A DNA stretch of 64,000 bases, taken from assembly GCA_019352035.1 (NCBI GenBank), contig JABBNZ010000010.1:1-64000 (forward strand). The letters run 5' to 3'. The position numbers and the translations under genes are program-made. Of this stretch, positions 2,689 through 54,659 are shown in pieces; positions within the stretch are counted from its first letter, which is position 1, and each line of letters opens with the position of its first letter. The notes under the pieces are model-generated. The model was given only the letters and a program-made list of their open reading frames with translations, was not told where the DNA came from and ran no database searches. The DNA is from Pseudomonadota bacterium (GTDB lineage: Bacteria; Pseudomonadota; Gammaproteobacteria; Steroidobacterales; Steroidobacteraceae).

Positions 2689-4059
2689 TCAACTGAACTG
2701 ACGCGCGATGTCGTTGTAGAGCGCCACCCCCATCAGCAGGATCAGCAGCGCGATGCCCACCTGGGCCCCCAGGGCCTGCGCCCGTTCCGACATCGGGCTG
2801 CCCTTCACCCACTCGACCAGCTGGAAGACGATCTGGCCGCCGTCGAGGATCGGGATGGGCAGCAGGTTCAGGAAGCCGAGCGACAGCGAGATCAGCACCA
2901 GGAAGCCCAGGAACGAGGTCACACCGGCACTCGCCGACTGTCCCGCGTATTCGGCGATGGACACCGGCCCGCTCAGGTTCTTCAGCGATACCTGCCCGAG
3001 CAGCATGCGCCAAAAAAGTCTTCCCTGCAGCGCTGTCATGCTCCAGGCCTGCGTCCCGGCGCTTGCGAGGGCCGCCGCGGCCGAGACGCTGCGGTGCCTC
3101 ATCATGCTTGCAGGATAGGATATTTCGGTCGGTCCGTCCGCATCGATGCGGCCCACGTACTTGCCGCCGACCTTCGCAGTCCCGACTTCCACCTGCACGG
3201 TGTGGGCCGCGTCTTCGCGCAAATATGTCAGGCTGATCGTCGTCCCCGGATGCGGCGTGATCTGCGCGACGAGGTTCTGCCAGTCCTTCACCGCATGTCC
3301 GTCGACGGAGACGATCCGGTCGCCACCCCGCAGCCCGGCGCGAGCCGCCGGGCCGTCCGGCCTCACTTGACTCAGCACCGGCGGAATCGCCGGCACCCAG
3401 AACTGAAATCCGAGGCCCCCGAGCGGGTCCACGGTGAGATGGCGCCGGGCCGCCTCGCTGCGCACGTCGAGATCGACATTGCGCGTCGCGCCATTGCTGC
3501 CGCGCACCGTCAGGTCCGCATTGCCGCGCGAGCTCATCGCATCGAGAAGGCCAAAGAGGACTTCGTGCTGGCCGTCGACCGCGGCGCCATTGATCGCAAG
3601 GATTCGATCGCCGGAGACCAGCCCCGCCTTGGCGGCGATGGAGCCGGGAGTCACCACGCCCACCACCGGCAGGTAGCGCGTGATGCCGTTGACCCAGAGC
3701 ACACCGGCGAGCACGAGAATGGCGAAGATGAAATTGAAGCCGGGGCCTGCCAGCAGCACCAGAATGCGCTGCCAGGGAGGCTTGCGGGTGAAGGACCGCG
3801 GCAGGTCCTCGGGGGCGACCGGGCCTTCGCGCTCGTCGAGGAGCTTGACGTAGCCCCCGAGCGGGATCGGCGCGATGGCGATCTCCGTCGGGTCCGCCCG
3901 GCCGACGCGCCAGGAGAAGAGCGGCGGCCCGAATCCCACCGAGAATCGCAGAACCTTGAAGCCGAGGCGGCGCGCCACCCAGAAATGGCCGAACTCGTGC
4001 ACGGTGACCAAAAGCCCGACCGCGACGACGAACCACAGCGTGTACCAGATGACACTCAT
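2689..4059 (-). CDS. rseP: RIP metalloprotease RseP (site-2 protease)
   Basis: RseP is an inner-membrane zinc protease. In related bacteria it cleaves anti-sigma factor RseA within the membrane during the sigma-E envelope stress response and clears signal peptide remnants. The 456-residue protein has the zinc motif HEFGH in its first membrane segment (about residues 21-25) and a periplasmic region with two PDZ-like domains (GDRILAING and GDRIVSVDG). The third metal ligand is in the LDG motif of [13 protein letters not shown] near the C-terminus. Its ATG overlaps the dxr stop by four bases (ATGA, 4056-4059), which suggests translational coupling. It lies directly upstream of bamA, the usual proteobacterial order. 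Confidence 0.97.
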
Positions 4060-5273
4060 GCCCGCGCTCCCTCGAGCGGGCGGCCCCCGGCCGCACGCAG
4101 CTCACTGTCGATACACTCCGACGCGAGCCGCCTGGCCTCCGCGTCAGCGGCGAGCACATCATCCAGCCCGCCGATCGTTCCCGCGGTACACCGTGTGACC
4201 ACCTGCTCAATGACTTCAGCGATGCCGGGAAAGTTCAATCGGCGCTCCAGAAAGGCATGGACGGCAACCTCGTTGGCGGCATTCAGGGCGACCGGAGTCA
4301 GCCCACCCGACTGTGCCGCCGCCTGCGCGAGGGCGAGACAGCGGAATTTCTGCGGATCCGGGGCGCGGAAGTCGAGCCGCGAGGTCTTCACCAGATCGAG
4401 GAATTCTACACCGGAGGCCATTCTCTCGGGCCACGACAGCGCGCACGCGATGGGCGTGCGCATATCCGGCGAGCCGAGCTGCGCGAGGAGCGACCCGTCG
4501 AGGTACTCTACCAGCGAATGGATGATGCTCTGGGGGTGTACGACGATCTCGACGCGATCCGGCGTCAGCGCAAAGAGGAAGCAGGCCTCGATGAGCTCCA
4601 GGCCCTTGTTCATCAGGGTCGCCGAGTCGACCGAGATCTTGCGTCCCATCACCCAGTTGGGATGCGCGCAGGCCGCCTCGGGAGTGGCCGCGGCGATCGC
4701 CTCCGCGGACCACTCGCGAAATGGGCCGCCCGAGGCAGTGAGCAGGATCCGGCGCACGCCCTTCGGCGCCTCGCCCGTGCGCGAGCCCGCCGGCAGGCAC
4801 TGGAAGATGGCGTTGTGCTCGCTGTCGATGGGCAACAGCGTCGCACCGCTCTCGCGTACGGCGTCCATGAGGAGCGTCCCCGACATGACGAGCGATTCCT
4901 TGTTCGCGAGCAGCAGGCGCTTGCCGGCGCGCGCGGCGGCGAGCGTGGAGCGCAACCCCGCGGCCCCCACGATCGCGGCCATGACGCAATCTGCCTCGGG
5001 CAGCGTCGCGATCTCCGTCAGCGCCCCAGTACCGGCGAGCACGCGAGTACCGCGTGCGGCCGTGCCGAGCTCGGCGGCGAGATCCCGCGCCGCCTTCTCA
5101 TCCGCCATCGCCGCGTATGCGGGCCGGAAGCGGCGCACTTGCTCGGCGAGCTTGCCGGCGTTGCGATTGGCGCCGAGCGCGACCACGCGGTAGCGGTCCG
5201 GATGGCGCGCGAGCACATCGAGAGTGCTCTCGCCGACCGAGCCGGTGGAACCCAAAACGACCACGCCGATCAT
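4056..5273 (-). CDS. dxr: 1-deoxy-D-xylulose 5-phosphate reductoisomerase
   Basis: Dxr converts DXP to 2-C-methyl-D-erythritol 4-phosphate with NADPH, the committed step of the MEP isoprenoid pathway. The 405-residue product begins with the dinucleotide-binding motif [17 protein letters not shown]. It has the metal/substrate segment [14 protein letters not shown] and the conserved stretch [15 protein letters not shown]. The start at 5273 is fixed by homology at [11 protein letters not shown] and by the four-base ATGA overlap with the cdsA stop. The upstream open frame reads through cdsA out of frame and is not part of the gene. Feeding isoprenoid precursors to uppS two genes upstream makes functional sense. 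Confidence 0.97.
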
Positions 5274-10509: not shown

Positions 10510-11283
10510 ATGCACGTAACCATCAAAACCCCCGAAGAGCAGGAGAAGATGCGCATCGCCGGCCGCCTGGCCGCCGAGGTGCTCGACATGATCGCCGAGC
10601 ACGTGGTGCCCGGCGTGACGACGGAAGAGCTCGACCGCATCTGCCACGACTACATCGTCAACGTGCAGGGAACGGTGCCTGCGAACCTCAATTATCGCGG
10701 CTTTCCGAAGACCATCTGCACCTCGGTCAATCACGTCGTCTGCCACGGAATCCCGAACGATAAACGCCTCAAGGCCGGTGACATCGTCAACATAGACGTC
10801 ACCGTGATTCGTGACGGCTTTCACGGCGATACCAGCCGCATGTACTTCGTGGGCAAGCCTCCCACCCATGCGCAACGGCTCGCCGAGACCTGCTTCCAGG
10901 CCATGTGGCGCGGCATCGAGACGGTGCGCCCCGGCACACGGCTCGGCGACATCGGCCATGCGATCCAGACATTCGTGGAGCAGAACAATTACTCGGTGGT
11001 GCGTGAGTACTGCGGCCACGGCATCGGGCGCATCTATCACGAGGATCCGCAGGTCCTGCACTACGGGGAGCCCGGCACCGGGCTCGAGCTCAAGCCCGGG
11101 ATGACCTTCACCGTGGAGCCGATGGTCAACGCCGGCAAGCGGCACGTGCGCCTGCTGCCCGACGGCTGGACGGTGATCACCAAGGACCATTCGCTCTCGG
11201 CCCAATGGGAGCACACGATTCTGGTCACCGATCAGGGGCACGAGGTGCTGACGCTGGGAGCCGCCGACCGGCGGGTTCACTGA
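10510..11283 (+). CDS. map: Type I methionine aminopeptidase
   Basis: MetAP removes the initiator methionine from nascent proteins and binds two divalent metals. The five ligands are recognisable: D in NIDVTVIRDG, D in FHGDTSRMY, H in YCGHGIGRIYHEDP, E in TFTVEPMVN and E in SAQWEHTILVT. I place the start at 10510 (MHVTIKTPEEQEKM), which matches the family N-terminus and gives 257 residues. An ATG at 10495 is also in frame, but it would precede the start of the putative mRNA. It is divergent from rpsB and 7 bp upstream of glnD. Confidence 0.96.
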   Translation: MHVTIKTPEEQEKMRIAGRLAAEVLDMIAEHVVPGVTTEELDRICHDYIVNVQGTVPANLNYRGFPKTICTSVNHVVCHGIPNDKRLKAGDIVNIDVTVIRDGFHGDTSRMYFVGKPPTHAQRLAETCFQAMWRGIETVRPGTRLGDIGHAIQTFVEQNNYSVVREYCGHGIGRIYHEDPQVLHYGEPGTGLELKPGMTFTVEPMVNAGKRHVRLLPDGWTVITKDHSLSAQWEHTILVTDQGHEVLTLGAADRRVH

Positions 11284-11290
11284 GCCCTCC

Positions 11291-13990
11291 ATGGCCGCCG
11301 GGGACGTCGATCTCCTCGATGAAGCGCTGCCCGCACGGGCCGCCGAGCCCGGCTGGCCCTGGCTGCAGCGCCTGCCGGCGCTGCTCGCCGAGGCGCGAGA
11401 GTCGCCCACCGCCTGGCGGGAGCTGCTGCGCCAGGCGCATGAGGAGCTGAAAGCCCGCTTCCTCGCCGAGGAGCCGGTCGAGACGCTGGTGCACGCTCGC
11501 GCGGCGCTCCTCGATGTGGTGCTGCGGGAGTCGTGGCGGGCGCACTCGATCAGCTCGATGATCTCCTGGGCACTCGTCGCCGTGGGCGGCTACGGGCGGG
11601 GTGAGCTGCACCCCTGCTCCGACATCGACATTCTGCTTCTCGTGCCGCGCGAGCCGGATGCTGCGGAGCGGGGCGCGATCGAGCGGCTGCTCGCCTTCCT
11701 CTGGGACATCGGCCTCGAGGTCGGCCACAGCGTGCGCACGGTGGAGGAATGCGCGGCCGAAAGCCTCGCCGACGTCAGCGTCATGACCACGCTGCTCGAG
11801 GCACGCCTGCTCTTCGGCAACGCCGCGCTCGTCGCGGACATGCAGGCCGCGCTCGCGCCGGATCGGGTCTGGCCGGTGAAGGAGTTCTTCGAGGCCAAGG
11901 TGCGCGAGCAATCGGAGCGTCACCTGAAGGCGTACGACACCGCCTACAACCTGGAGCCCAACGTCAAGACGAGCCCCGGCGGTCTGCGCGACATCCAGAC
12001 CATCGGCTGGGTGGCCAAGCGGCGCTTCGGCTCCGACACGCTCGACGGGCTCGTCGCGAACGACTTTCTCACGGTCGCGGAGCTGCGACGCCTGAAGCAG
12101 GCGCAGTCCTTCCTCTGGAAGGTGCGCTTCGGCCTGCACGTGCTCACCGGACGGCGCGAGGACCGCCTGCTCTTCGACCATCAGCTGCGCCTTGCCCAGA
12201 CCTTCGGCTACGAGGACGCTTCCTACACGCTTGCGGTCGAGCAATTCATGCAGCGCTACTACCGCACGGTCAAGGACGTCAGCCTGCTGAACGAGCTGCT
12301 GCTGCAGCTCTTTCGCGAGGCGCTGCAGCCGCAGAGCGAGCCGCCGCGCCCGCTGAATGCCCGCTTCCAGGTGCGCAACGGGTCGCTCGAGGCCGTCAGC
12401 GAGGATGTATTCGCGCGCACTCCGTCGGCGCTCCTGGAACTGTTCGTACTGCTGCAGCAGAACCCAGACATCAAGGGCGTGCGTGCCGCCACCATGCGCT
12501 CGGTCGCGAGGAGCCTCTGGCTCATCGACGAGGAATTCCGCCAGAACCCGCGCCACCATCGGCTCTTCCTCGAGATCGTGCGCGCGCCCGCCGGCGTCAC
12601 CCACGAGCTGCGCCGGATGAACAACTATGGCGTGCTGGGGCGTTACATCCCGGCCTTCGGCCGCATCGTCGGGCGGATGCAGTACGACCTGTTCCACGCC
12701 TACACGGTCGATGCGCACACCCTCTTCGTCGTGAGCAACCTCAGGCGGTTCGCGATTGCCCGCTACGACCACGAGCTGCCGGAAGCCTCGCGCATCATGC
12801 AGCAGCTGCCCCGGCCCGAGGTCGCCTACCTCGCGGCGCTCTTTCACGATATCGCCAAGGGCCGCGGCGGCGATCACTCCGAGCTCGGCTCGGTCGATGC
12901 CGAAGCCTTCTGCCTGGAACAGGGTCTCTCGCCCTATGACGCGCGCATCGTGGCGTGGCTCGTGCGCAATCACCTCACCTTCTCGCTCACCGCGCAGAAG
13001 CAGGACATCAGCGATCCGCAGGTCATCAACGCCTTCGCCCGCACCGTGGGCGATGAGGCGCACCTCGACTACCTCTATGTCCTCACCTGCGCGGACGTGC
13101 GCGGCACCAACCCCAGGCTGTGGAATTCCTGGAAGGCTTCGCTCTTCCACGACTTGTATCTGCGCGTGCGGCGGGCGCTGCGCCGCGGGCTCGAGGCCCC
13201 CATCGACCAGGAGCAGCTCGTGCGCGAGACCCAGGAGGTCGCCCGCCGGCTGATGCAGGAGCGCAATCTTCCCGCCGCCGAGATCGAGCGCGCCTGGACG
13301 CGCTTCTCCCCCACCTACTTCCTGCAGCATTCCCCCGAGGAGGTCGCCTGGCACTCGCGCCTGCTCGGCGAGCGCGACCCGCGCTCCGATGAGCCGCTGG
13401 TTGCGCTGGACCCGCAGAGCGTTCGCGGCACGACGGCGGTGCTCATTTACACCCGCGCGCGCCGGCACGGCTTCGCGCGCACCACGGCCGTGCTCGATCA
13501 GCTGGGACTCAACATCGTGGATGCGCGCATCACCCCCACGGGTGACGGCTTCAGTCTGGATCTCTACCACGTGCTCGAGGATGACGGCGCGCCGATCACC
13601 GACCGCGACCGGCAGGAGGAGATCGAGCATGCGCTCTGGGGCTCGCTCCAGCGGCCGGACGATACCCCCTTCGCGGTATACCGCCGCGCGCCGCGCCAGG
13701 CGCGCATGTTCCACACCGCCACTTTGATCGCCCTCACCGTGGACGAGCGCAACCACCGCTCGGTGCTCGAGCTCACCGCGGGCGATCGCCCGGGCCTGCT
13801 CTGCGACGTGGGCAAGGTGCTGATGGAGCAGCGCGTGGAGCTGCAGGCGGCCAAGATCATGACCGTCGGCGAGCGCGCCGAGGACGTCTTCTACGTGACC
13901 GACTTCGACGGCCGGCCGCTCGATGCGGCGGCCGCGGAGCGGCTGCGGGAGAGCCTCGCGCGGGCGCTCGACCGCCGCGACGCGGCATAA
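11291..13990 (+). CDS. glnD: [Protein-PII] uridylyltransferase / uridylyl-removing enzyme
   Basis: GlnD senses glutamine and adds or removes UMP on PII proteins, controlling glutamine synthetase and nitrogen genes. The 899-residue product has the nucleotidyltransferase motif GGYGRGELHPCSDIDILLL near residue 100 and a helical linker domain. An HD phosphohydrolase domain (LFHDIAKGRGGDHSELG, about residue 520) removes UMP. Two C-terminal ACT domains for glutamine sensing start with TTAVLIYTRAR and SVLELTAGDRPGLL. All parts are intact. It follows map by 7 bp and precedes dapC by 18 bp, so the genes are probably cotranscribed. Confidence 0.97.
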   Translation: MAAGDVDLLDEALPARAAEPGWPWLQRLPALLAEARESPTAWRELLRQAHEELKARFLAEEPVETLVHARAALLDVVLRESWRAHSISSMISWALVAVGGYGRGELHPCSDIDILLLVPREPDAAERGAIERLLAFLWDIGLEVGHSVRTVEECAAESLADVSVMTTLLEARLLFGNAALVADMQAALAPDRVWPVKEFFEAKVREQSERHLKAYDTAYNLEPNVKTSPGGLRDIQTIGWVAKRRFGSDTLDGLVANDFLTVAELRRLKQAQSFLWKVRFGLHVLTGRREDRLLFDHQLRLAQTFGYEDASYTLAVEQFMQRYYRTVKDVSLLNELLLQLFREALQPQSEPPRPLNARFQVRNGSLEAVSEDVFARTPSALLELFVLLQQNPDIKGVRAATMRSVARSLWLIDEEFRQNPRHHRLFLEIVRAPAGVTHELRRMNNYGVLGRYIPAFGRIVGRMQYDLFHAYTVDAHTLFVVSNLRRFAIARYDHELPEASRIMQQLPRPEVAYLAALFHDIAKGRGGDHSELGSVDAEAFCLEQGLSPYDARIVAWLVRNHLTFSLTAQKQDISDPQVINAFARTVGDEAHLDYLYVLTCADVRGTNPRLWNSWKASLFHDLYLRVRRALRRGLEAPIDQEQLVRETQEVARRLMQERNLPAAEIERAWTRFSPTYFLQHSPEEVAWHSRLLGERDPRSDEPLVALDPQSVRGTTAVLIYTRARRHGFARTTAVLDQLGLNIVDARITPTGDGFSLDLYHVLEDDGAPITDRDRQEEIEHALWGSLQRPDDTPFAVYRRAPRQARMFHTATLIALTVDERNHRSVLELTAGDRPGLLCDVGKVLMEQRVELQAAKIMTVGERAEDVFYVTDFDGRPLDAAAAERLRESLARALDRRDAA

Positions 13991-36234: not shown

Positions 36235-38358
36235 TTGACGGATGAACCCGGTGAACGTCGGGGATTGCTGCCGCGATTCACGCTGAAGGATGCGGACACG
36301 TTCCTGCTTGCGGATGCCCTCGGAGATATTCAGGGCAGCGGCGACGGTTTCTTCTCGAATGACACGCGCATGTTGTCGCGCTTCGAGCTTGCCGTCGCCG
36401 GCCGAAGGCCGTCGCTCCTGGGCGCGGCGATCAGTCAGGACAACACCTTGTTCACGGCGCATCTTACGAATTTGCCCTTGCCCGCCTTGGGCGAGCGCTC
36501 GATTCCGCAAGGCGTCATCCATATCGAACGCAGGCGGTTCCTGTGCGAGAGTCGGCTGTTCGAGCGGCTGCGGCTTACGAACTTCAGCGACCTCGATGCG
36601 CATGTGCCGCTGAAGCTTTCCTTCGAAGCCGATTTCGCCGACATCTTCGAGGTGCAAGGACACGTACGCAGGGAGCGCGGCGAGTCTCTGCCGGCCGCGG
36701 TGGACGGCAGCATCGTGCGCTTCGCTTACCGTGGCCGCGATGATCTGGTGCGTTCGACTCAAATGGCGTTCTCTCGACCACCTGAATCGATATCCTCGCA
36801 GGACGCCGAATTTCTGATCGCGCTGCAACGCGGTGCCGTCGCGGAAGTGTACATCGAGATCGGCGCGGAAGAAGGCGGCGTGCCTTCGTCGGAACGTTTC
36901 GACAAGGCCCTGCAGCGCTTGTCGGCCAGCATGCAGAAACGCATGGAAGAAGGCGCGGCGATCAGCACGTCGGGGCGGCTTTTCAATGAGTGGATTGACC
37001 GATCGCGCTCCGATCTTGCGCTGTTGACAACGGCGCTACCGACGGGCCCGTATCCCTACGCCGGCATTCCATGGTTTGCGACCCAATTCGGGCGTGACGC
37101 GATCATCGCGTCGTTGCAGACGTTGTGGCTGAATCCACACCTTGCCGCGGGCGTGCTGCGCTTTTTGGCCTCTACCCAAGCGCAGGACGAGTCCGCGTTC
37201 CGCGACTCCCAGCCCGGAAAGATCCTGCACGAGATGCGACGCGGCGAAATGGCGGCGCTGGGCGAGGTCCCCTTCGGCCGGTACTACGGCGCTGTCGATA
37301 CAACGCCTCTGTTCGTGATGCTTGCCGGTGCGTACGAAAGGCACACCGGCGATCGCAAGCTGAATGACGGGATCTGGAACAATCTGCTCGCGGCCACCGA
37401 GTGGATCGAGCGGCGGCTCGACGACAGCTCCACCGGCTTTCTCGACTACGCCCGCGGCGAGCAGAGCGGTCTGGTCAATCAGGCCTGGAAAGATAGTCAC
37501 GATTCGATGTTCTACGCGGATGGGAAGTTCCCACGCGGTCCGCTCGCGGTCGTCGAGGTGCAGGGCTATGCATACGCGGCGCTCAAGGCAATGGCGGAGC
37601 TCGCGGCCGTGCGCGGCGATCTGCAGAGAAGCGCAGCATGGCGAGCCCGCGCTGCACAACTATGTGCAGCGATCGAGGACCAGTTCTGGGTCCCGGAATT
37701 GAACTTCTATGCGATCGCCATTGACGGCGGCGGAAAGCCGTGCAGTGTTCGCGCCTCGAATGCAGGGCATCTTCTGTATTGCGGCGTACCGAGCGAAGAA
37801 CGCGGCGCTATGGTCGTGAAGGAGTTGTTGTCGAACCGATTTTCCAGCGGCTGGGGCATCCGGACGCTGGCCAGCGGCGAGGTCCGTTACAATCCCATGT
37901 CATACCACAATGGCTCGATCTGGCCGCACGATACGTCGCTTTGCGCGGCGGGCATTTCGCGCTATGGGGGGCGCGCGCCCGTGATGCAGATCCTAGATGG
38001 CCTCTTTGAAGCGGCCAATCATTTTGGCATGCGTCTGCCGGAGCTTTACTGCGGCTTTCGGCGCCACACCGGCCAAGGCCCGGCGCCCTATCCAGTTGCC
38101 TGCTTACCGCAGGCATGGGCCTCCGGTGCCGTCTTCATGCTGTTGCAGTCCTGTCTGGGGATACGCATCGACGGCCGGCGCAAGGAAGTGCACATCGAGC
38201 GGCCGCTATTGCCCAGTGGCGCCGAATCGCTCAGCATCCGCAAGCTGCCGGTGGGCGATGCGGCCATCGATCTGGAGTTTCATCGCATCGGCGAGGAAGT
38301 TGTCGCCGTACCCAGGAAGCACGTGGAAGGCGGAGTACGCGTGTTGGCGCACTTGTAG
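36235..38358 (+). CDS. Amylo-alpha-1,6-glucosidase-like glycogen debranching protein
   Basis: The 707-residue protein matches the bacterial glycogen-debranching family (COG3408). An N-terminal beta-rich domain (residues 1 to about 260, with NDTRMLSRFELAV) precedes an (alpha/alpha)6 barrel with GIPWFATQFGRDAIIASLQT, RRGEMAALGEVPFGRYYGAVDTT-type sequence and YNPMSYHNGSIWPHDTSL. The barrel resembles glucoamylase-like hydrolases, so it may trim alpha-glucan branches or another glucoside. The start is a TTG at 36235 with GAGG 8 nt upstream. It lies next to a glycosyltransferase (38421) and a broken one (35945), suggesting a small polysaccharide locus. Confidence 0.85.
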   Translation: MTDEPGERRGLLPRFTLKDADTFLLADALGDIQGSGDGFFSNDTRMLSRFELAVAGRRPSLLGAAISQDNTLFTAHLTNLPLPALGERSIPQGVIHIERRRFLCESRLFERLRLTNFSDLDAHVPLKLSFEADFADIFEVQGHVRRERGESLPAAVDGSIVRFAYRGRDDLVRSTQMAFSRPPESISSQDAEFLIALQRGAVAEVYIEIGAEEGGVPSSERFDKALQRLSASMQKRMEEGAAISTSGRLFNEWIDRSRSDLALLTTALPTGPYPYAGIPWFATQFGRDAIIASLQTLWLNPHLAAGVLRFLASTQAQDESAFRDSQPGKILHEMRRGEMAALGEVPFGRYYGAVDTTPLFVMLAGAYERHTGDRKLNDGIWNNLLAATEWIERRLDDSSTGFLDYARGEQSGLVNQAWKDSHDSMFYADGKFPRGPLAVVEVQGYAYAALKAMAELAAVRGDLQRSAAWRARAAQLCAAIEDQFWVPELNFYAIAIDGGGKPCSVRASNAGHLLYCGVPSEERGAMVVKELLSNRFSSGWGIRTLASGEVRYNPMSYHNGSIWPHDTSLCAAGISRYGGRAPVMQILDGLFEAANHFGMRLPELYCGFRRHTGQGPAPYPVACLPQAWASGAVFMLLQSCLGIRIDGRRKEVHIERPLLPSGAESLSIRKLPVGDAAIDLEFHRIGEEVVAVPRKHVEGGVRVLAHL

Positions 38359-42432: not shown

Positions 42433-44640
42433 CTACTGCTCTGTTGCGGAAGGTGCTTCGCCAAGGCGATCAACCACGGGCGGCGCGGCAGGGACCGTAA
42501 AGTAGAACGTACTCCCACGTCCGGGTGCGCTCTCGACCCAGACATGACCACCGTGAGCCTCGACGACACCCTTGACGATCGGGAGGCCGAGTCCCGCGCC
42601 TCGACGCTCGGCCTTTCGTGCTTGCCAGAACCGGTCGAAGACATGCGGGAGATCCTCCGCGGAAATGCCGAAACCGGTATCGGCTACCCAGAAGAGGACT
42701 TCCTCCTCTCTCGGTCGTGCCCCAATCGTGATTCTTCCACCGGCTCCTGTAAACTTGACCGCGTTGCCCATGAGATTCTCGAATACCTGGAGCAGTCGAT
42801 CTCGGTCAGCCCAGATCTCGGTAAGCTCCGGCGAGACGTCGAGCCGAACCTCGAGGGAAGTTGACGACACGAGCGCCTGTTGTGCCTCCAGAGAATCAAT
42901 GATGACCTGCCCTACCCGCACCCGGACGGGGTGGATGGATAGACGCCCTGCTTCCATGCACGTCACGTCGAGGAGGTCCTGGATGAGGCGATTGATTCGG
43001 CTCGCGGCCCGCTCGATGCGCTCCGGCTCCCCGCCGCGGCGTCGCAGGAGCGTCGCCTGCATGAGGATGGTGTCCAGCGGGTTTCTCAGGTCGTGCGCAA
43101 CGATCCCGAGCACTTGGTCCCGCGCCTGAACCGCCTGCTCAGCCGCGTGGTACAGCCGCGCATTCTCCAGGGCGAGCGATGCGCGCCGACCCACTTCCTC
43201 CAACAGGTGCAAATCGGTGGCGGCGTACCGTCGTCCGGGACGACACGATGCCACTACGAGCGCTCCCACAAGCCGGCCATGGACGGTAAGCGGGACGCCC
43301 ATCATCGAGGTGGGGGCGATTTGCTCCAGCAGCCGCCGATTCTCATCGTTTTGTGCGATCGCCCGAATCGTCTCAGGAGTGACCTCTGCCGTAAGCTGCG
43401 GCTCCTTCGATTCAAGAATCGCCCAACTCAGGTGCGGGCGGCCACGATCGACTGGGAACCGCTTCAACGCCTCCGCAATCGCGGCTTTGTTCGGATCCGA
43501 GGTTCCCACCTCGAGTCGTCGCAGATCGCCTTGCTCGTCCGCGAACTCGATGAGGCAGAAGTCCGCGAATTCACGCAATGCCGCGCGTGCGATATTGGTG
43601 AGTGTCCGCTGGGAATCGAGCGAGGTCGCGAAGATGGCGCCAATCTCCGCGAGGAACGCCTGCTCGTGCTCGATTCTCTTCTGTTCGGTGATGTCCCGAA
43701 GAACCAGCGTGAACAGCCACACCCCTTCGACGTTCAGCTTCGAGACGGACGCCTCGGCGGGGAACTCCTCTCCGTTCTTGCGAAGCCCGAAGATCTCAGG
43801 GCGGTGCTCCCCCATCTTGCGCGCCGTCTCGGCCGCTGCGGCAAAGCTTGAGATGTGCTTGCGGTGACTCTGCCGGAAGCGCTCCGGAACCAGGATGTCG
43901 TGTGGCTTGCCGAGCACCTCCTCGCATGACCAGCCGAAGACTCGCTGCGCTCCCTCATTGTACATGACGATGAGTTGTGCCGCGTCGACGCAGATGATGG
44001 CGTCCGCCGCAATGGAGATGATTCCCGCAAGCCTCGCCTCCGAGGCGCGCAGAGCGCGATCGGACAAATCTCGATCCAGGGCGATAGCCAGCTGATTCAC
44101 GACCGCGTCGATGAAGAAAAGGTCCTGCTCCTCCAACTCCTTGACGCTCTCGATCTGCAAGGCGCCGAAGACAGAGCGGTGAGCCACGGCGAATGGAAGC
44201 ATCACGAAGTTCTGCTTTGCCTCGGCCTGCGCCTCCGGTGCCACTGAGAGCGGCGAGACCTCGAGGGTCCTCGCCTCCTCGCGGTTGAATTCGACGCGGG
44301 AGTGGATGAGATAGCCATACACTTCCCGCGCGTGCGCCTGGGCCATCCGCAATCGCCGTGAGCTCTCCCCCGCAGCTTGCCAGGTGATCGTCCGCCGCGC
44401 GCCCCCTGTCTCCAATATGAACGTCGCGCTGTGCAGGGGCAGTGTTTCCGCGATGACGGACACCACCATGGGAACGGTTCGCTCCAAAGTCTGGAAATGC
44501 GCGAGCAGTTTGCTGACGTCGTAGAGGTGCTGGAGGCGCCGCTGCGAGCGCTCCAGTTCAGCGAGGCGACCATCGAGCCGGGCGAGCTCATCGCGCGCCT
44601 CTGGACCGCCGCGAGTCGTGTCGGGGGCTCGCCCGCTCAT
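42433..44640 (-). CDS. GAF-PAS-GAF sensor histidine kinase
   Basis: The 735-residue soluble kinase has a short coiled coil (RLAELERSQRRLQHLYDVS), a first GAF domain (about 45-195), PAS (about 205-325; YNEGAQRVFGWSCEEVLGKP), a second GAF (about 330-490), HisKA with GIVAHDLRNPLDTIL, and HATPase (ENLMGNAVKFT, VADTGFGIS, GAGLGLPIVKG). It has no receiver domain or membrane segment. It starts 9 bp after the triple-KaiC gene in the same direction, so the two are probably cotranscribed. Its first GAF closely matches that of the GGDEF protein at 49429. No response regulator is adjacent. Confidence 0.92.
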   Translation of the reverse strand: MSGRAPDTTRGGPEARDELARLDGRLAELERSQRRLQHLYDVSKLLAHFQTLERTVPMVVSVIAETLPLHSATFILETGGARRTITWQAAGESSRRLRMAQAHAREVYGYLIHSRVEFNREEARTLEVSPLSVAPEAQAEAKQNFVMLPFAVAHRSVFGALQIESVKELEEQDLFFIDAVVNQLAIALDRDLSDRALRASEARLAGIISIAADAIICVDAAQLIVMYNEGAQRVFGWSCEEVLGKPHDILVPERFRQSHRKHISSFAAAAETARKMGEHRPEIFGLRKNGEEFPAEASVSKLNVEGVWLFTLVLRDITEQKRIEHEQAFLAEIGAIFATSLDSQRTLTNIARAALREFADFCLIEFADEQGDLRRLEVGTSDPNKAAIAEALKRFPVDRGRPHLSWAILESKEPQLTAEVTPETIRAIAQNDENRRLLEQIAPTSMMGVPLTVHGRLVGALVVASCRPGRRYAATDLHLLEEVGRRASLALENARLYHAAEQAVQARDQVLGIVAHDLRNPLDTILMQATLLRRRGGEPERIERAASRINRLIQDLLDVTCMEAGRLSIHPVRVRVGQVIIDSLEAQQALVSSTSLEVRLDVSPELTEIWADRDRLLQVFENLMGNAVKFTGAGGRITIGARPREEEVLFWVADTGFGISAEDLPHVFDRFWQARKAERRGAGLGLPIVKGVVEAHGGHVWVESAPGRGSTFYFTVPAAPPVVDRLGEAPSATEQ

Positions 44641-44649
44641 CGCACAGTC

Positions 44650-46824
44650 CTATCTCTTCGCGCGTTTGTGCGCCGAACGGCTCTTTCCGGCGGGCGCGCT
44701 GCCGGCGCTCACGCGCTCTCCGATTCGAATTCCCCCCTGGGTGATGGAGAAGTAGTGCGTTCCCCAGTCGTGCGAGCTGCCGCGAGTCTTCACCACGGAG
44801 ACCGTCGGCTGAAGGTCTCCGGGCGCTCTCGCGTAGCGAAGCACGAGAATATTGTCGGCCATCGCCGAGTAGCCGCGTCCGGTCACGATGTCGGTCGAGT
44901 ACATCGAGTCCGATTCGAGGGTGAGAATACTCGTCACGCCACAACCCTTGAGCCGCGCGACCATTGCGCCGAGCAGATGCCGCAGCTCTTCAGGAACTGC
45001 ACCGCCCCGCGCCATGTGGTTCACGCCGTCGAGGACCAATCGGCGGGTCCTTTGCGTGCGAATGGTGTCGTCCAGCCGTGAGAGAAACTGACTGGGGCGA
45101 ACGTTCTCGCCAGACAGATACAGGATCTCGACGAGCCCCTTGTCGGTCGCCTGCTTCAGCGACAAACCGAGGCCCTCTGCGGTGTTGAGAATCTGGGTCG
45201 ACCCCTCCTCCAGCGTCACGTAGAGTCCCGGCTCCTTGCGCCTGGCGCCCTCGAGAATGAACTGGAGCCCGAGCGTGCTCTTGCCGATCCCCGCGCTCCC
45301 GGAGACGAGCGTGACGCTCCGCTCGAGCAGGCCGCCACCGCAGAGTTCATCGAGACCCGGAACACCCGAGGGGTGGCGCCGCGCCGACTCCGGCGGCGGC
45401 GGTGGCCCGCGCGATTCGGCGTCCATGTCGTAACGAGGAAAGATGCTGATTCCTCCGGAGCCGACGAGCATGCTGTGCCGGCCCTTGAGGTGGGCCGTAT
45501 TCCTGAGCTTGTAGACCTCGATGTACCGCTGGCGCTCGAAGCCCTCCTCGGTCGAAGTGAGCAGCACGACGCCATCGACGACCGTCTCCTCGACGCCGAA
45601 TCGACTGAGCTGGTTGGCCCCATAAGGAATATCGGTTGCAAAGAAGCCCACGGCCTGTGAGTTCTGGACGATGCTCGCGAGTTGGAAGACCTTCTCCCGA
45701 TCGATCTGCGGGTCCTGGACCTTGTGCAGAAACACGGAGATCGAGTCGATGGCGACACGCCGGGCCTGCATTGCCTGGACCCGCTCCTGCATCATGAGGA
45801 GGTGCTGCTCCACCATGATATTGGGCTGCGCGATGAAGACGATCTCAATCATGCCGCGCTCGATCTCGTGCTCGAGGTCCCAGCCGAGGCCGCGAGCGCT
45901 CGCCAGCAACCTCTCCTTCGTCTCCTCGAAGGAGAAGATGATGCCCTTCTCGCCCGCCTGGGCCCCGCGGTAGAGGAATTCGAGCAGCAGTACCGTCTTA
46001 CCCGTCCCCGCCACTCCGGCGATGAGCAGACTCGAACCGCGCGGAATTCCCTCGCCCAGCAGCTCGTCGAACTTCGAGATGCCGGTCTTGCATCGCGCCG
46101 CGCCGGGTCCCCGGTCCTCGCGCTGGACAGTGACTCGTGGAGCAAACACCTCGATGCCCTTCGAGGTGATGACGAAGGAGTGCTCGTCACGGTTGTGCTC
46201 GGTGCCACGGAGCTTCACGAGCTGGATGAACCGCTGCTGCTCGCCGGACTGTTCGCGCTGAGTGACCAGGAACAGGCCGTCAATCACCGAGAAGAGCGGG
46301 TTGGTGCTGATGTCCAGGGGTCCGTATTCGCCAAGGAGAAAGCTGGTGACTTCCCAGGCCATGAGGTTCACCGCGAGCTCGTAGCCGAACTTGCGCAACT
46401 CCTCCTTGGAGTGCGCCAGATCGTCCAAGGCCCGGAAGCTGTCCACCACGACGATGGCCGGCTTGATCTTCCTGACCTGATCCATGATGAGCTTGGAGGC
46501 TTGCTCGAGGCCCTTCGTTCGCAGGATCACCCCGAGATCGACGAACCGAACTCCGCCGGCATCGAGTTTCCTGGGGTCAAAGAAGCTGAACTGGGTCAGG
46601 TGCCGCAGGGTCTTCGCGGTCGGCTCCGACAGCGTGTTGAAGTAGAGCACCTGCCGTCTGGCAGAGGCAATGTGGAAGCATATCTGCTGGGTGAGGATCG
46701 TCTTGCCCGCGCCCGGCGGGCCGGCAAGAACGACGACCGAGCCCCTGGGAAGACCACCGTGCAAGAGCGCATCGAGGTTCCGCACGCCCGTCTCGATGCG
46801 CGCGACGTCGTTCTTCTTCGTCAT
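44650..46824 (-). CDS. KaiC-like protein with three RecA-type ATPase domains
   Basis: The 724-residue protein has three KaiC-type ATPase domains in a row, against two in clock KaiC. The Walker A motifs are GPPGAGKT (about residue 35), GVAGTGKT (about 268) and GSAGIGKS (about 508). Walker B segments are AIVVVDSFRAL, RVAIDSISVFL and RLVLDGVNHMA. Domains 2 and 3 keep the paired catalytic glutamates (FSFEETKER, VTLEEGSTQ); domain 1 has SE instead (FNTLSEPTAK). It overlaps the upstream unknown gene by ATGA and precedes a histidine kinase by 9 bp. kaiA and kaiB are absent, so it is more likely a signalling ATPase than a clock. Confidence 0.9.
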   Translation of the reverse strand: MTKKNDVARIETGVRNLDALLHGGLPRGSVVVLAGPPGAGKTILTQQICFHIASARRQVLYFNTLSEPTAKTLRHLTQFSFFDPRKLDAGGVRFVDLGVILRTKGLEQASKLIMDQVRKIKPAIVVVDSFRALDDLAHSKEELRKFGYELAVNLMAWEVTSFLLGEYGPLDISTNPLFSVIDGLFLVTQREQSGEQQRFIQLVKLRGTEHNRDEHSFVITSKGIEVFAPRVTVQREDRGPGAARCKTGISKFDELLGEGIPRGSSLLIAGVAGTGKTVLLLEFLYRGAQAGEKGIIFSFEETKERLLASARGLGWDLEHEIERGMIEIVFIAQPNIMVEQHLLMMQERVQAMQARRVAIDSISVFLHKVQDPQIDREKVFQLASIVQNSQAVGFFATDIPYGANQLSRFGVEETVVDGVVLLTSTEEGFERQRYIEVYKLRNTAHLKGRHSMLVGSGGISIFPRYDMDAESRGPPPPPESARRHPSGVPGLDELCGGGLLERSVTLVSGSAGIGKSTLGLQFILEGARRKEPGLYVTLEEGSTQILNTAEGLGLSLKQATDKGLVEILYLSGENVRPSQFLSRLDDTIRTQRTRRLVLDGVNHMARGGAVPEELRHLLGAMVARLKGCGVTSILTLESDSMYSTDIVTGRGYSAMADNILVLRYARAPGDLQPTVSVVKTRGSSHDWGTHYFSITQGGIRIGERVSAGSAPAGKSRSAHKRAKR

Positions 46825-47300
46825 GACTTCGCCCCCGCGCCAGCCTCGCCCTTGGAAGCCTGCGGACCGGCTTGCGGGCCATCGTCTTCAGGCCCTGCCT
46901 CCGGTGGCGCGATCTTCAGGAGTTCCGCGTGCAGCGCCGGGCTGAGGATCTCGGCGGTCAGGGTGCCGAGGACAGTGAGAAACTCGACCAGGACGAACCG
47001 AACCGCTTCCGCGAGCTGATCACGATGCAAACTCCCCGCTCGCTGCTGGAGCTCCTGGAAGCGAAGTCCCGCGGGCTCGACCTTGAGTGCGGAGAAAAAC
47101 GGGTACTGCTCAGCCGCGACATACAGCACGCGATCGACGATGGCCATCAGCGTCACGTCCCCAAGGGTTTGATGAGCGCGACCCCACAGGGCTGCGAATC
47201 CCTGATCGAACACCAGGAGCAGCCTATCGGAGGGCGAGCGATTTGCCACTCGTTCCAGCCAGGCGTCCACACATGCGCCGTGCTCGCGCGCGTCAACCAT
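46821..47300 (-). CDS. Uncharacterised protein coupled to KaiC-like gene
   Basis: I do not recognise this 159-residue protein. The first ~125 residues look like one alpha-helical domain (DAWLERVANRSPSDRLLLVF; FVLVEFLTVLGTLTAEILSP), and the C-terminal ~30 are low-complexity (PEDDGPQAGPQASKGEAGAG). It has no signal peptide or membrane segment. The ATG at 47300 is chosen by position; an upstream in-frame start would add 31 unlikely residues. Its stop overlaps the KaiC-like start by four bases, so the proteins are made together and may interact. Confidence 0.7.
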   Translation of the reverse strand: MVDAREHGACVDAWLERVANRSPSDRLLLVFDQGFAALWGRAHQTLGDVTLMAIVDRVLYVAAEQYPFFSALKVEPAGLRFQELQQRAGSLHRDQLAEAVRFVLVEFLTVLGTLTAEILSPALHAELLKIAPPEAGPEDDGPQAGPQASKGEAGAGAKS

Positions 47301-48266: not shown

Positions 48267-49340
48267 TTACGGCAGGAATGAATGTGCACAATACGTCGCA
48301 ACCTCTCCTGGCAGCGACGCCAGCCCCCAGAACAGGGCATCGACCCCAATCCGCACGCCGACGTCCGGATGCCAGCCGAAATCGCGATTCCACTGCACGA
48401 CAGGTTCGACATATCCAAATAGCCAGCCGCCATGGAGCGGGCGCTTCATGAATACGCTGGCCTCGAACAAGGAAGTCTTTGACGCCCGGCCGCCGGAAAC
48501 GCTAACGCGAACGGCCACTCCGCACGCGAGGTCACGGCCGGTCGCGAATCGATCGTAACGGCGCTCCTGAATGACCCCCGCCGCGTAGCCGATGATCAGG
48601 CTCTGCGACCACGCCGTCACGGCGGTATTGCGGACCCAGTTGCCGTAACTCGCCGAACGCACGATCCAGCGGCCGCTCCAGTGCTCGAAGGCAATTCCGC
48701 CGCTCGTCCCCACGCCCAGACCGCTCTGCACGTACGTCTTGATGAACGGATACACGCGCAGGGCCCCCGCGTCGAACTCGGGAGCCCATCTCAGCGCCGC
48801 GAAGGCGGACGGCGAAGAATTCGCCTGCACGCCGAATTCGACATCCACGTACGATCCCGGGAGGAATCGTGCGCCAACGCGGAGTGGATTGGGCTCATCG
48901 ACGGGGGTGCCGGGAGATTCCGGCAGGTCAGCGCTGGTCGCGAAAACCCCCAACCGTTGCTCGATGTTCGGCAGACGCAGCGTGGCTTCGAATTCCGGCC
49001 TGGCCAGGACATCCATTCCATTTTTGCGATGGACGAACTCACTCTCGAAACCGATGCGCACGGGCGACAACGGCACCACGATAGGCGCCTGCTCCGGCAC
49101 CGCAAACCGAAGGTCCACGTCCTCGAAAAAATGCTGCAAACGACGGTAGAGCCAGTCATGACCGGCGTCCAGACGTCCCCCAAGAGTGGCGGCCGCCGCC
49201 CTCGACGCCTGCTGCAGCTTCCCGATGGTGCCGACCGACGGACGCACCCGCTCCGGACCCTTATCATGCGCGCTCGCAGTGATCGCCATGGCGAGCAAGG
49301 CAATCAGCACAGTAAGAGCCTTGCGCAACGGTGCGGCCAT
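48267..49340 (-). CDS. Uncharacterised exported protein, possibly outer membrane beta-rich
   Basis: I do not recognise a family. The 357-residue precursor has a clear signal peptide (ending AITASAHDKG). The mature part alternates hydrophobic and polar residues in short strands with many aromatic residues (SLIIGYAAGVIQERRYDRF; GYVEPVVQWNRDFGWHPDVG), like outer-membrane barrels, though the end (CAHSFLP) lacks the usual terminal aromatic. It has no obvious catalytic motif. It is 89 bp downstream of the GGDEF gene in the same direction and could be cotranscribed with it. Confidence 0.65.
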   Translation of the reverse strand: MAAPLRKALTVLIALLAMAITASAHDKGPERVRPSVGTIGKLQQASRAAAATLGGRLDAGHDWLYRRLQHFFEDVDLRFAVPEQAPIVVPLSPVRIGFESEFVHRKNGMDVLARPEFEATLRLPNIEQRLGVFATSADLPESPGTPVDEPNPLRVGARFLPGSYVDVEFGVQANSSPSAFAALRWAPEFDAGALRVYPFIKTYVQSGLGVGTSGGIAFEHWSGRWIVRSASYGNWVRNTAVTAWSQSLIIGYAAGVIQERRYDRFATGRDLACGVAVRVSVSGGRASKTSLFEASVFMKRPLHGGWLFGYVEPVVQWNRDFGWHPDVGVRIGVDALFWGLASLPGEVATYCAHSFLP

Positions 49341-49428: not shown

Positions 49429-50589
49429 TCAAGACGAATCCACCACCACGCAGTTACGACCCTTCGCCTTTGCATCATACAGGGCTCGGTCGGCGCGCCG
49501 GATCAGCTGCTCGAGCGTGTCCTGATCGGATAACGCCTCGGCAAGCCCGGCGCTGATCGTGGCCGACACACGCACCGAGCGCGTCTCGATTCCGTCGGCC
49601 GCGATCGCCTCGCGAATGCGCTCCGCGACGACCGCGGCCTGTTGAGCCGTGCTCCCGGGAAACACCACGATGAATTCCTCGCCGCCGTAACGCCCCAGGA
49701 CGTCAGCGGCGCGCAATCGCTCACTGGCCGCCCGGGCGACCCGCTTGAGGATCTCATCACCCAGCTGGTGTCCGGCGGTGTCGTTGATCAGCTTGAAGCG
49801 GTCGATGTCGAACAACATCATCGCGAGTGGCAGGCCGTAGCGCTGTGCCACGGCCCATTCGTGTGCGGCCACCTCGAGAAAGTGACGCCGATTGTTCAGA
49901 CCGGTCAGGCCATCGGTGCGTGACATCAATTGCTCGCGTGCGAGCGCCTCACGAAGCTCGCGATTTGCGACCTCGAGGCTTGCCTCGGAGATGCGCAACG
50001 CTCGATCGGCAGAATCTCGATCGAGCGCGATCGCCAGCTGGTTCACCACCACGTTGATGAAGAAGAGGTCCGACTCTTCCATTTCCCCGCGACCCTCGAT
50101 CTGCAGCGCACCGAAAATGCAACCGTGCCCGACGGCAAACGGAAGCATCACGAAATTCCGCGTTGTCTCGGACTTTGTCCCGATTGCGCTCGCGGGCGGC
50201 TGCGGAGCCATCAGCCCCGCTGCCGGGCCCTCGTCCAGCTTTTTGCGAAAGCGATTCAGGTCGCGGTACACCTCCTGCGCGTGAGCTTTGGCCACTTCCA
50301 GCCTTCGTCCATTCTCACCGGCGGCTTGCCAGCTGAGTATCTGCGGTGACCGTCCCGTCTCCAGCATAACGATCGCACTGCGCAGCGATAATGCGTCGGC
50401 GATCAGAACGAACACTTCAGCCACAGTTCGCTCGAAGCTCTGGAAACACGTGAGCACTTTGCTGATGTCGAACAGTCGCTGCAAGCGCCGCTGCGACCGC
50501 TCCAACTCGGCAATGCGGTGATCGCGCCAAGCGACGTCCTCCTGAGTCTCGACTTCTTCGTGGGCGCTGACAGGATCTGGCCCACTCAT
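49429..50589 (-). CDS. GAF domain diguanylate cyclase (GGDEF)
   Basis: This protein makes cyclic di-GMP from GTP. The 386-residue sequence has a short coiled coil, one GAF domain (about 35-195) and a GGDEF domain with the active motif GRYGGEEFIVVF. An RxxD inhibitory site (RAAD) lies exactly five residues before GGEEF, so feedback inhibition is expected. It has no EAL domain. The ATG at 50589 has a strong AGGAGG site. The first 200 residues are close to those of the kinase at 42433-44640 (shared ELERSQRRLQ, SWQAAGE, NFVMLPFAV), so both may sense the same ligand. Confidence 0.93.
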   Translation of the reverse strand: MSGPDPVSAHEEVETQEDVAWRDHRIAELERSQRRLQRLFDISKVLTCFQSFERTVAEVFVLIADALSLRSAIVMLETGRSPQILSWQAAGENGRRLEVAKAHAQEVYRDLNRFRKKLDEGPAAGLMAPQPPASAIGTKSETTRNFVMLPFAVGHGCIFGALQIEGRGEMEESDLFFINVVVNQLAIALDRDSADRALRISEASLEVANRELREALAREQLMSRTDGLTGLNNRRHFLEVAAHEWAVAQRYGLPLAMMLFDIDRFKLINDTAGHQLGDEILKRVARAASERLRAADVLGRYGGEEFIVVFPGSTAQQAAVVAERIREAIAADGIETRSVRVSATISAGLAEALSDQDTLEQLIRRADRALYDAKAKGRNCVVVDSS

Positions 50590-51164
50590 CAGCGCCTCCT
50601 GCACCTTATCCAGCTCGAACGTCGCGAACTCCACGTGCAACGCTGACGTAAAGATGTCGGCGGCGGGATGAACGGCCACAACGGACCACTCCGATCGATC
50701 GCACGTGGACGTTCCACGTACTTGCCCCGCCCGGGCGCCACTGTGTAACCCCGCATTCCCGCACCTCAGAGTGACTCTGCCCATCGTACTCAGATTTACC
50801 GCCAAGGGTAATCGGTAAAAGCCGCCCTCGCTCCAGACGGATGCGCCTTCGCGCCCCTCGAACTCGGACAGACACCTCTCCAGCGAGCGCAGAGGCGGTC
50901 GGTTGCGGCGGCTTTGCCTCCTGGGGAGGTACTTGCCTCGAGCGCTCGCAGAACGCCACCGGCAACCACCGCCGAAGCCACACCTCTGCTACCCAGGCCC
51001 CGGATCCGGCACTACCTCGAGCTTGCCAGGGTGCAATTACCTCGTGACCCCATACATTCACTTGCCCGTCGAATACAGTGGAAACTCCCTATTGAGGCCG
51101 GGTCTACGGTGAAGCATCATTCCTCACAACAACATTTTTCTCCCTGACAATACGGAGTCACGAC
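50590..51164. other. 575-bp spacer upstream of the GGDEF gene
   Basis: The minus-strand frame at 50606-51061 is rich in Arg and Gly with no domain and overlaps the region where the GGDEF promoter should be, so I do not call it. Nothing else is supported. Confidence 0.4.
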
Positions 51165-52057: not shown

Positions 52058-52252
52058 TCAGGACTTTGTCGCGTCCTTGACGGCCGCCTTCAAATCGCCA
52101 ACCTGATGCTGCACTTTTCCTTCCACCTGCTTCTCCAGCCCCTTGACCTGCTGCTCCTTGCTGCCGACCATTTTGCCGGCTTCCTCCTGAATCTTCCCGC
52201 CGATGTCCTTTGCTGAGCCCTTGACCTGATCTTTGTTCAAATCGCTGTTCAT
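52058..52252 (-). CDS. CsbD family stress protein
   Basis: The 64-residue protein begins MNSDLNKDQVKGSAKDIGGK and is a short, charged, helix-forming protein of the CsbD family (DQVKGSAKDIGGKIQEEAGK, then EGKVQHQVGDLKAAVKD). CsbD in Bacillus is a general stress protein; the molecular role is unknown. The start at 52252 has GGAGGAG 6-10 nt upstream. It is one of several stress-type small genes in 51165-53438. Confidence 0.88.
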   Translation of the reverse strand: MNSDLNKDQVKGSAKDIGGKIQEEAGKMVGSKEQQVKGLEKQVEGKVQHQVGDLKAAVKDATKS

Positions 52253-52953
52253 GTCGCTCTCCTCCGCTCTCTGGTTACGCCTCAAACCTTGACATCCAAT
52301 CACACTCCGAACCACCTCACCCTAACCTGGTGTGATGCAAAGAGTAATAGGTGGCTTCACCGATTGACGAGATTGGAGCCTGTGACGAGCGCGCTGCAAG
52401 CCTGTACATCTGCCCGAAGCAACCGGAGATATGCCGCAACGCCCAAGCACGCGCTCCAAGCAATACCGCGATCTACGGCATGCCACTCCGGTCGGTCAGC
52501 GTGACCGGCGAGTCCGCTCATTTCCGGCGAACTGACCGATGCACCACGCGGTCGACGTCGGAGCATCCAGGCCGGCGACCGCGGTGGTCGTGGCTGCAGC
52601 ATTTTAATAATCAGCTTCAGTTACGCTCTGATACAACGCGCCACAGCGCATCGACCTGCGTAATACACGTATAGCGCCAAATGGAAGCGGATGTAGGATG
52701 AAGGACAAATGACCGCGGAAGCGACATGACCTGGACAGTTGCAGGACTCTTGAATGCTCCTTTAGCTGGTCTGAGTGCTCACTTCCCACACGTCGGGCGG
52801 ATCTATTGAATTTCCGGTGGTCATCATCGTCGTCATCGGCAAACTATCGTGGCGGCAAGGGCCTACAAGGCTGAATTGCTGCGGCGGCATCGTTGCACGC
52901 CGTGATGATCTTGATCCGATGCAATATCCCCAGGTCGGTGCAGGAGTGGCGAA
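52253..52953. other. 701-bp spacer without a supported gene
   Basis: Open frames here are short and lack ribosome-binding sites or recognisable motifs. The part before 52315 is the CsbD upstream region. I see no repeats or RNA elements in the rest. Confidence 0.4.
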
Positions 52954-53978: not shown

Positions 53979-54659
53979 GTGCGCTGGCTGGAGGTAACCC
54001 TTTGGACGGCCGGTCTCGTCCTGCTGAGTTATTACGCGGCGTTGCGCGTCTCGGCAGAGCAGGATCGCCGCGCTGGCGTCGAGATGTTCCAAGCCGCCCG
54101 GCATATCGCTCATGCGCAAGCGCCGGCGGACCGCCTTCTTGTCCAATCCGGCCACGTCGATAAGTCGCTCTGGTCGGAAGCTCGAGTGCGCGCCTTCCGC
54201 CGAACCACGCTTCATGAGGTCCCGGAGGGAGTTCTTCGCATCCCTGCGCTGGGGTTGGTCGTACCGATTTACTCCGGCACGACCTCCGCGGAACTCGACC
54301 GGGGCGCCGGCCACGTCGAGGGCACCGCGCCTATCGATTCCGCAGGCAATGCAGCCATTGCCGGGCATCGCGATGGGTTCTTCCGCAGCTTGCGGCGCAT
54401 CAAGATCGGACAGATGATTTACGTCGAGACCCTCAGCGATACGCGGCGCTACCGCGTGATTGAGACACAGATTGTGGCTCCATCGGATGTGTCGGTTCTC
54501 GCGCCGACAGTGCTTCCAAGCATCACGCTCATCACCTGTTATCCATTTTACTTCGTGGGTCCCGCCCCCGGGCGCTTCATCGTCCGGGCAGAGTTCTTCC
54601 CCAGTCGGCAGCATGCGGCAGATGGCCGTATCGCCGAATATTCTCAACGCCAGGAGTAA
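53979..54659 (+). CDS. Class D-like sortase
   Basis: Sortases are membrane transpeptidases that cleave an LPXTG-type signal between Thr and Gly. The 226-residue protein has one N-terminal membrane segment (VTLWTAGLVLLSYYAAL) and a sortase domain. All three catalytic residues are present: His in AIAGHRDGFFRSL, Cys in ITLITCYPFYFVG and Arg in GRFIVRAEF. The start is a GTG at 53979. The next gene, 5 bp downstream, encodes a protein with an LPKTG sorting signal, its obvious substrate. Sortases are typical of Gram-positives and rare in proteobacteria. Confidence 0.92.
   Translation: MRWLEVTLWTAGLVLLSYYAALRVSAEQDRRAGVEMFQAARHIAHAQAPADRLLVQSGHVDKSLWSEARVRAFRRTTLHEVPEGVLRIPALGLVVPIYSGTTSAELDRGAGHVEGTAPIDSAGNAAIAGHRDGFFRSLRRIKIGQMIYVETLSDTRRYRVIETQIVAPSDVSVLAPTVLPSITLITCYPFYFVGPAPGRFIVRAEFFPSRQHAADGRIAEYSQRQE

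Follow-up and report, generated by a model that had tools for sequence, protein, structure and literature searches.

In the cyanobacterial KaiABC-SasA system the KaiC ATPase signals to a soluble histidine kinase, and the clock KaiC has two RecA domains, each with a catalytic Glu pair. According to the accessible part of PMC11832031, the phosphosite pair of clock KaiC (Ser431/Thr432) lies in CII; the same part describes myxobacteria as having multiple kaiC genes, few kaiB and no kaiA, gives KaiC lengths of 470-514 aa for two named species, and reports rhythmic rings of fruiting bodies, along with several kaiC genes, in Myxococcus macrosporus. In Ramlibacter, a 'second kaiC-context' has a specific histidine kinase gene after kaiC and no kaiB, the pair being co-transcribed by RT-PCR, and an hourglass role was proposed for it in the accessible part of PMC3164672. 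The text of that paper available to us names no small partner of the pair; its supplementary legend includes 'HP, Hypothetical Protein' among the KaiC neighbours, and a gene such as the one we designate SMALL may be there unnamed. Archaeal KaiC-like proteins are treated in the accessible part of PMC5847659 as signalling hubs, with inactivated domains termed iKaiC. The roles of KaiC-like ATPases outside the cyanobacterial clock, and kinase signalling without KaiB, are described as unclear in the parts of PMC5520375 and PMC3164672 available to us.

A three-gene unit with a KaiC-like ATPase

The unit described here lies in a 64,000-nucleotide stretch of Steroidobacteraceae DNA (the window), and its genes and surroundings are as follows.

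46821-47300, minus strand: SMALL, 159 aa, a predicted helical protein of an uncatalogued family
44650-46824, minus strand: KaiC-like ATPase, 724 aa, with three PF06745 domains
46105..46812 (approximate), minus strand: KaiC-like domain 1; LSE in place of FEE, Walker A GPPGAGKT intact
45391..46104 (approximate), minus strand: KaiC-like domain 2; counterpart of clock CI in the alignment, with Walker A GVAGTGKT and an intact FEE
44707..45390 (approximate), minus strand: KaiC-like domain 3; counterpart of CII in the alignment, with Walker A GSAGIGKS and an intact LEE
42433-44640, minus strand: GAFn-PAS-GAF-HisKA-HATPase_c histidine kinase, 735 aa
44026..44586, minus strand: GAFn, the N-terminal GAF of the kinase, with a conserved start RLxxLYEISKxLxxFE
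49429..50805, minus strand: diguanylate cyclase; its N-terminal domain (49951-50538) shares 56% identity with GAFn
52058-52315, minus strand: CsbD-like stress protein in the unit's surroundings
36235-38358, plus strand: glycogen-debranching-type enzyme in the unit's surroundings
53979-54659, plus strand: sortase in the unit's surroundings

The order SMALL, KaiC-like ATPase, kinase is read entirely from the minus strand, with a 4-bp overlap (ATGA, 46821-46824) between the first two genes and a 9-bp gap (44641-44649) before the kinase gene directly downstream, which bears out the coupling of the three genes proposed in an earlier note made from the sequence. That note had also claimed the absence of kaiA and kaiB, and this holds for the eight proteins scanned with Pfam (the unit's three and five neighbours), none of which matched either. 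A single Pfam-less gene (48267-49340) separates the unit from the diguanylate cyclase gene upstream of it. A second SMALL-KaiC-kinase unit, followed by another kinase, occurs in the window's genome (L021, G000:C162:1-6481); it belongs to the sister-clade type discussed below, and its KaiC gene contains 556 N.

As in Ramlibacter, the kinase directly follows the KaiC-like gene and there is no kaiB (in the window, among the eight proteins scanned). As far as the accessible text of PMC3164672 describes them, the Ramlibacter proteins differ from ours in that the kinase N-domain resembles both KaiB/SasA and a receiver domain, whereas that of the window's kinase is a GAF, and in that the KaiC is phosphorylable at both positions, whereas the window's ATPase has Ser-Ala. 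A KaiC ATPase together with a histidine kinase is likewise shared with KaiABC-SasA; unlike that system, the unit has a SMALL protein that is predicted to be nearly all helical and matches no KaiA or KaiB model, a kinase with a GAF N-domain, and incomplete clock phosphosites. The archaeal iKaiC hubs resemble it in tying KaiC-family ATPases to two-component signalling and in their inactive KaiC domains; they carry fusions with REC and HalOD1, and the accessible part of PMC5847659 does not describe a SMALL-like partner. The myxobacterial homologues share a phylum with many of the relatives found here, but three-domain forms, SMALL and the kinase unit are not described in the part of PMC11832031 available.

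SMALL itself had no Pfam match in the window's 159-residue form, and searches of Pfam and NCBIfam gave nothing significant (scattered single-member matches with E-values of 0.023 or worse); the best match to PDB sequences, with an E-value of 0.23, was also not significant. An AlphaFold model (mean pLDDT 84.8, pTM 0.76) predicted a helical bundle with helices at residues 4-19, 24-43, 48-65, 67-71, 82-90, 93-114 and 120-129, and a short hairpin at 73-80; the tail, beginning near residue 131, is modelled with low confidence, and structure comparison found no convincing fold relative of the model. The KaiB model matched none of 19 SMALL members at an E limit of 10 (the HMMER filters drop most matches above 0.1), and KaiA gave no sequence match to SMALL members and was absent among the fold-comparison chains listed, which leaves room for a likeness to its C-terminal helical KaiC-binding domain. 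The open-licence PMC titles and abstract starts surveyed contained no description of the unit or of SMALL, so within the literature searched the family appears new; KaiC-kinase pairs were already known.

The ATPase belongs to the KaiC family by a wide margin (431.7 bits against a gathering cut-off of 26.6), and its three PF06745 stretches agree with the three RecA domains given in the earlier note, one more than in clock KaiC, whose CI-CII aligns with domains 2 and 3. The same note had one domain lacking the paired catalytic glutamates, which needs refining: domain 1 reads TLSEP where the clock has TFEE, the first Glu being lost and the second kept (S-E in place of E-E), while domains 2 and 3 keep E-E. 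At the clock phosphosite positions the alignment places Ser-Ala in domain 3 and Glu-Thr in the CI-like domain 2, so that the window's ATPase does not carry the clock pair, and the corresponding residues are Ser-Pro in all 11 of the other three-domain rows aligned.

The first Glu of domain 1 was lost in all 37 aligned SMALL-linked KaiCs and the second kept in 36 of them. We considered the loss as a mark of SMALL-linked KaiCs and rejected it; since 9 of 12 KaiCs without SMALL show the same loss, it is not special to the window's ATPase. The three KaiCs with both domain-1 glutamates (L104, L015 and L016) are without SMALL, as are the clock-type KaiCs examined (3/3). In a domain tree, which was searched only briefly and is weak in its deep branches, domain 1 grouped with domain 1 of other non-clock KaiCs and domain 3 with second domains. 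Three-domain KaiCs have an inactive domain followed by a CI-like and a CII-like one, and two-domain relatives of both clades keep one or the other, which suggests loss or fusion of whole KaiC domains; those of the window's clade are without the CII-like domain 3. The triple-domain form described in the earlier note did not prove essential: 10 of the 16 uncut ATPases in loci found through the ATPase have three domains and the other 6 have two, so that the third is optional.

SMALL and its neighbours in other genomes

An ATPase scan of the species-genome collection gave 40 pattern matches, 18 of which encoded a relative, and a SMALL homologue lay just upstream of the ATPase in 18/18 (in L032 the C-terminal part of SMALL alone aligns, on a frame-broken, low-coverage contig). 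A kinase with the shared N-terminal GAFn followed in 16 of the 18; in the other two, L031 and L039, the ATPase gene is itself cut short by the end of the contig. These loci are labelled Myxococcota, Bdellovibrionota, Gemmatimonadota and Pseudomonadota, with one unplaced 'delta proteobacterium' and one Actinomycetota MAG. The ATPase relative in that MAG (L022, JAIVGO010000076.1) is 69% identical over its full length and 78% over domains 1 and 2, suggesting transfer or a mis-binned contig. Nearer the window the unit is rare, on counts that are lower bounds, only part of the first-look candidates having been scored in many genomes: at E 1e-70 the ATPase was found in at least 1 of the 398 phylum genomes scanned (the window's own) and at E 1e-50 in at least 5 of 60 relatives, its own genome included, with another close one only in the same-genus genome G309, which supplied L032; SMALL was found in at least 2 of 80 relatives and, with profile A1, in at least 1 of 229 genomes of the class.

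Searches with a SMALL profile, made without reference to KaiC, found matches in 29 of 193 Myxococcota genomes, and the broader profile A3 (which includes some Myxococcota matches but none of the 15 new loci found with it) found them in at least 3 of 319 Pseudomonadota, 4 of 114 Bdellovibrionota and 10 of 121 Gemmatimonadota genomes. Once loci that had entered the profile, or had already turned up in the ATPase scan, were set aside, 40 new SMALL loci remained: 23 in Myxococcota, 2 in Pseudomonadota, 3 in Bdellovibrionota, 10 in Gemmatimonadota and 2 extra in the 16 seed genomes. Since SMALL lies beside a KaiC-like gene or a kinase, or is fused to one, in 39 of the 40, the linkage is beyond chance, and the question of conservation in other genomes is answered positively for the four phyla just named. 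KaiC lay directly downstream of SMALL in 26 (11 Myxococcota, 15 others), a kinase in 12, and in one SMALL was fused to the kinase (L059/L092). The exception, L060, is a 27-residue match on a stretch of 1582 bases in which no KaiC or kinase was found. Members of the family are SMALL-profile matches adjoining KaiC or kinase, a description that covers the window's own protein. Two candidates were not counted: L010 (G128), upstream of KaiC and a GGDEF gene, failed the SMALL profile test, and L011 had no KaiC or kinase at the locus. In single-sequence searches with the window's SMALL, 274 genomes of the class yielded itself and two weak matches and a plasmid collection yielded none; among 12 plasmid KaiCs inspected from 287 matching records (chosen from the top 30), 2 had SMALL and 10 did not.

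The overlap seen in the window is common. After removal of two duplicates from 60 rows there were 58 distinct loci, and with the two fusions set aside a start-stop overlap context was present at the SMALL stop in 50 of 56 (ATGA in 42); we infer that the overlapping start codons in these 50 are true starts. Both fusions, SMALL-KaiC in L033 and SMALL-GAFn-kinase in L092, are separate loci of one Bacteriovorax MAG (G724). An assembly error may lie behind them; in L033 a frameshift introduced in assembly could make the two genes look fused, since elsewhere SMALL and KaiC are read in different frames across their 4-bp overlap. In the Bdellovibrionota locus L134 a single-domain response regulator (3815-4195, plus strand) lies upstream of SMALL (4192-4701, plus strand) with a 4-bp overlap, and it is a candidate phosphate acceptor.

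In 12 Myxococcota genomes, some of them draft assemblies, the kinase gene comes immediately after SMALL and no KaiC separates the two. Ten of these genomes have KaiC matches only 28-39% identical to the window's ATPase and two have none at E 1e-20, whereas three control genomes with SMALL and its KaiC gave ATPase matches 57-60% identical. GAFn was present in 10/10 of the KaiC-free loci re-examined. One such pair (L085) adjoins a 573-residue gene for peptide release factor RF3 (10582-12303, minus strand); a gene of the same size, judged by size only, lies beside the pair in L086, L087 and L088 and not in L090.

In Pfam terms the window's kinase matches PAS, GAF, HisKA and HATPase_c, its N-terminal GAF falling below the curated cut-off, and has no receiver-domain match. 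GAF models recognised GAFn in as many as 21 of the 26 relatives, and the GAFn profile matched GAF-type chains of NLH1 and a Nif-specific (NifA-type) regulator; KaiB, which a SasA-type N-terminal domain would resemble, was not among the matches listed. The earlier note's "multi-sensor" arrangement of PAS and second GAF did not prove constant; what is constant in the window's clade is GAFn, kept with a two-domain, three-domain or missing ATPase. The GAFn-like domain of the nearby diguanylate cyclase suggests, on sequence similarity, a common input to c-di-GMP, and that enzyme could possibly be a second output of the unit.

Comparison of 20 enlarged neighbourhoods (7 of the window's clade, 13 of a sister clade) found a kinase directly after KaiC in 18: in 7/7 of the window's clade, where every kinase has GAFn, and in 11/13 of the sister clade, none being found after KaiC in the other two. 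GAFn was not detected in any of the 13 sister-clade neighbourhoods and therefore cannot be the sole kinase-side target of SMALL. Sister-clade KaiCs, which include the second unit of the window's genome (C162), mostly read LGE[PST] in domain 1 and also carry SMALL. GGDEF and kinase are combined in one downstream protein in L101 and L147, and in L098 a GGDEF-EAL protein takes that place; the Paracoccus plasmid locus L102 has an annotated HWE kinase and a response regulator. In a tree of 48 KaiCs (36 SMALL-linked, 12 unlinked; L099 and L123 left out) the SMALL-linked ones fell on one side, with a single label change that 0/500 shuffles equalled; long branches are a concern and the joining branch is weak (75/43).

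What SMALL may do between ATPase and kinase

SMALL occurs with KaiC but no GAFn, with a GAFn-kinase but no KaiC, fused to each in one genome, and in the full unit. The simplest reading of these patterns is that SMALL is an adaptor that touches both, and we tentatively regard the unit as a conserved non-clock signalling module in which SMALL would join ATPase and kinase. Co-occurrence, gene order, overlaps and the predicted fold are the observations behind this reading; the contacts, the direction of the signal and the role of ATP in the following scheme are conjectural. SMALL would bind the ATPase, probably at the inactive first domain, a domain type common to its ATPase partners, and in the window's clade it would also bind the kinase through GAFn. 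Whether SMALL is held or presented to GAFn might then depend on ATP being bound or hydrolysed in the ring formed by domains 2 and 3, and kinase activity would rise or fall accordingly. The PAS and second GAF may add further input, and the phosphate would go from the kinase to a response regulator whose gene lies elsewhere. For the sister clade we envisage SMALL and the ATPase feeding kinases that lack GAFn, or GGDEF proteins. Several points weigh against an adaptor: both fusions come from one MAG, the branch joining the SMALL-linked KaiCs is only 75/43, GAFn is undetected throughout the sister-clade loci, the predicted fold has no convincing relative, most of the plasmid KaiCs inspected are without SMALL, and the domain-1 Glu loss is not distinctive.

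SMALL might instead be a private cofactor of the ATPase, standing in for KaiA/KaiB in nucleotide exchange or oligomerisation, with the kinase reading the ATPase directly and never touching SMALL. The position of SMALL directly upstream of KaiC in all 18 ATPase-found and 26 of the 40 new loci, its single frame with KaiC in L033 and the sister-clade kinases without GAFn all accord with this, but the 12 Myxococcota genomes that keep SMALL on a kinase while a close KaiC relative was not found, and the joining of SMALL to GAFn and kinase in L092, make it unlikely. We are still more doubtful that SMALL is a regulatory subunit of the kinase, sensing or inhibiting through GAFn, to which the ATPase was added as an accessory energy or stress input. 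The SMALL-GAFn-kinase pairs and the KaiC-free fusion are what such a subunit would leave, yet sister-clade SMALL keeps KaiC beside a kinase without detected GAFn or a GGDEF-EAL output, and L033 puts SMALL in one frame with KaiC.

The earlier note spoke of a non-clock signalling or timing device. A shared signalling role is a natural inference from the linkage; timing found no support, domain 3 having Ser-Ala at the phosphosites. A genuine timer, with a slow phosphorylation or ATPase cycle in which SMALL replaces KaiA/KaiB as the phase-setting partner, could draw on the Walker A motifs and both glutamates kept in the CI-like and CII-like domains and on the ring rhythm and multiple kaiC genes of M. 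macrosporus (accessible part of PMC11832031). The Ser-Ala here and Ser-Pro in the other 11 three-domain rows, the two-domain relatives of the window's clade without a CII-like domain, and the SMALL-kinase pairs without this ATPase leave it, of all the readings, the most improbable. Simple co-expression, the products forming no single device, has very little to recommend it either: operons can group genes loosely, and the fusions share a MAG, but the linkage recurs in the same order across four phyla and the two fusions are of different kinds.

Returning to the adaptor, it seems quite possible, at somewhat less than an even chance, that SMALL represents an unrecognised bacterial family that ties histidine kinases or GGDEF proteins to KaiC-like ATPases in at least four phyla, and thus a second, KaiB-independent wiring of the KaiC ring into signalling; in the window the GAFn common to kinase and diguanylate cyclase may let a single adaptor-ATPase pair feed the two of them. 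KaiC-like ATPases would thereby gain a recurrent, specific partner protein, which suggests the surfaces that should touch, and the KaiC-free SMALL-kinase pairs of Myxococcota offer a simpler system in which to test this.
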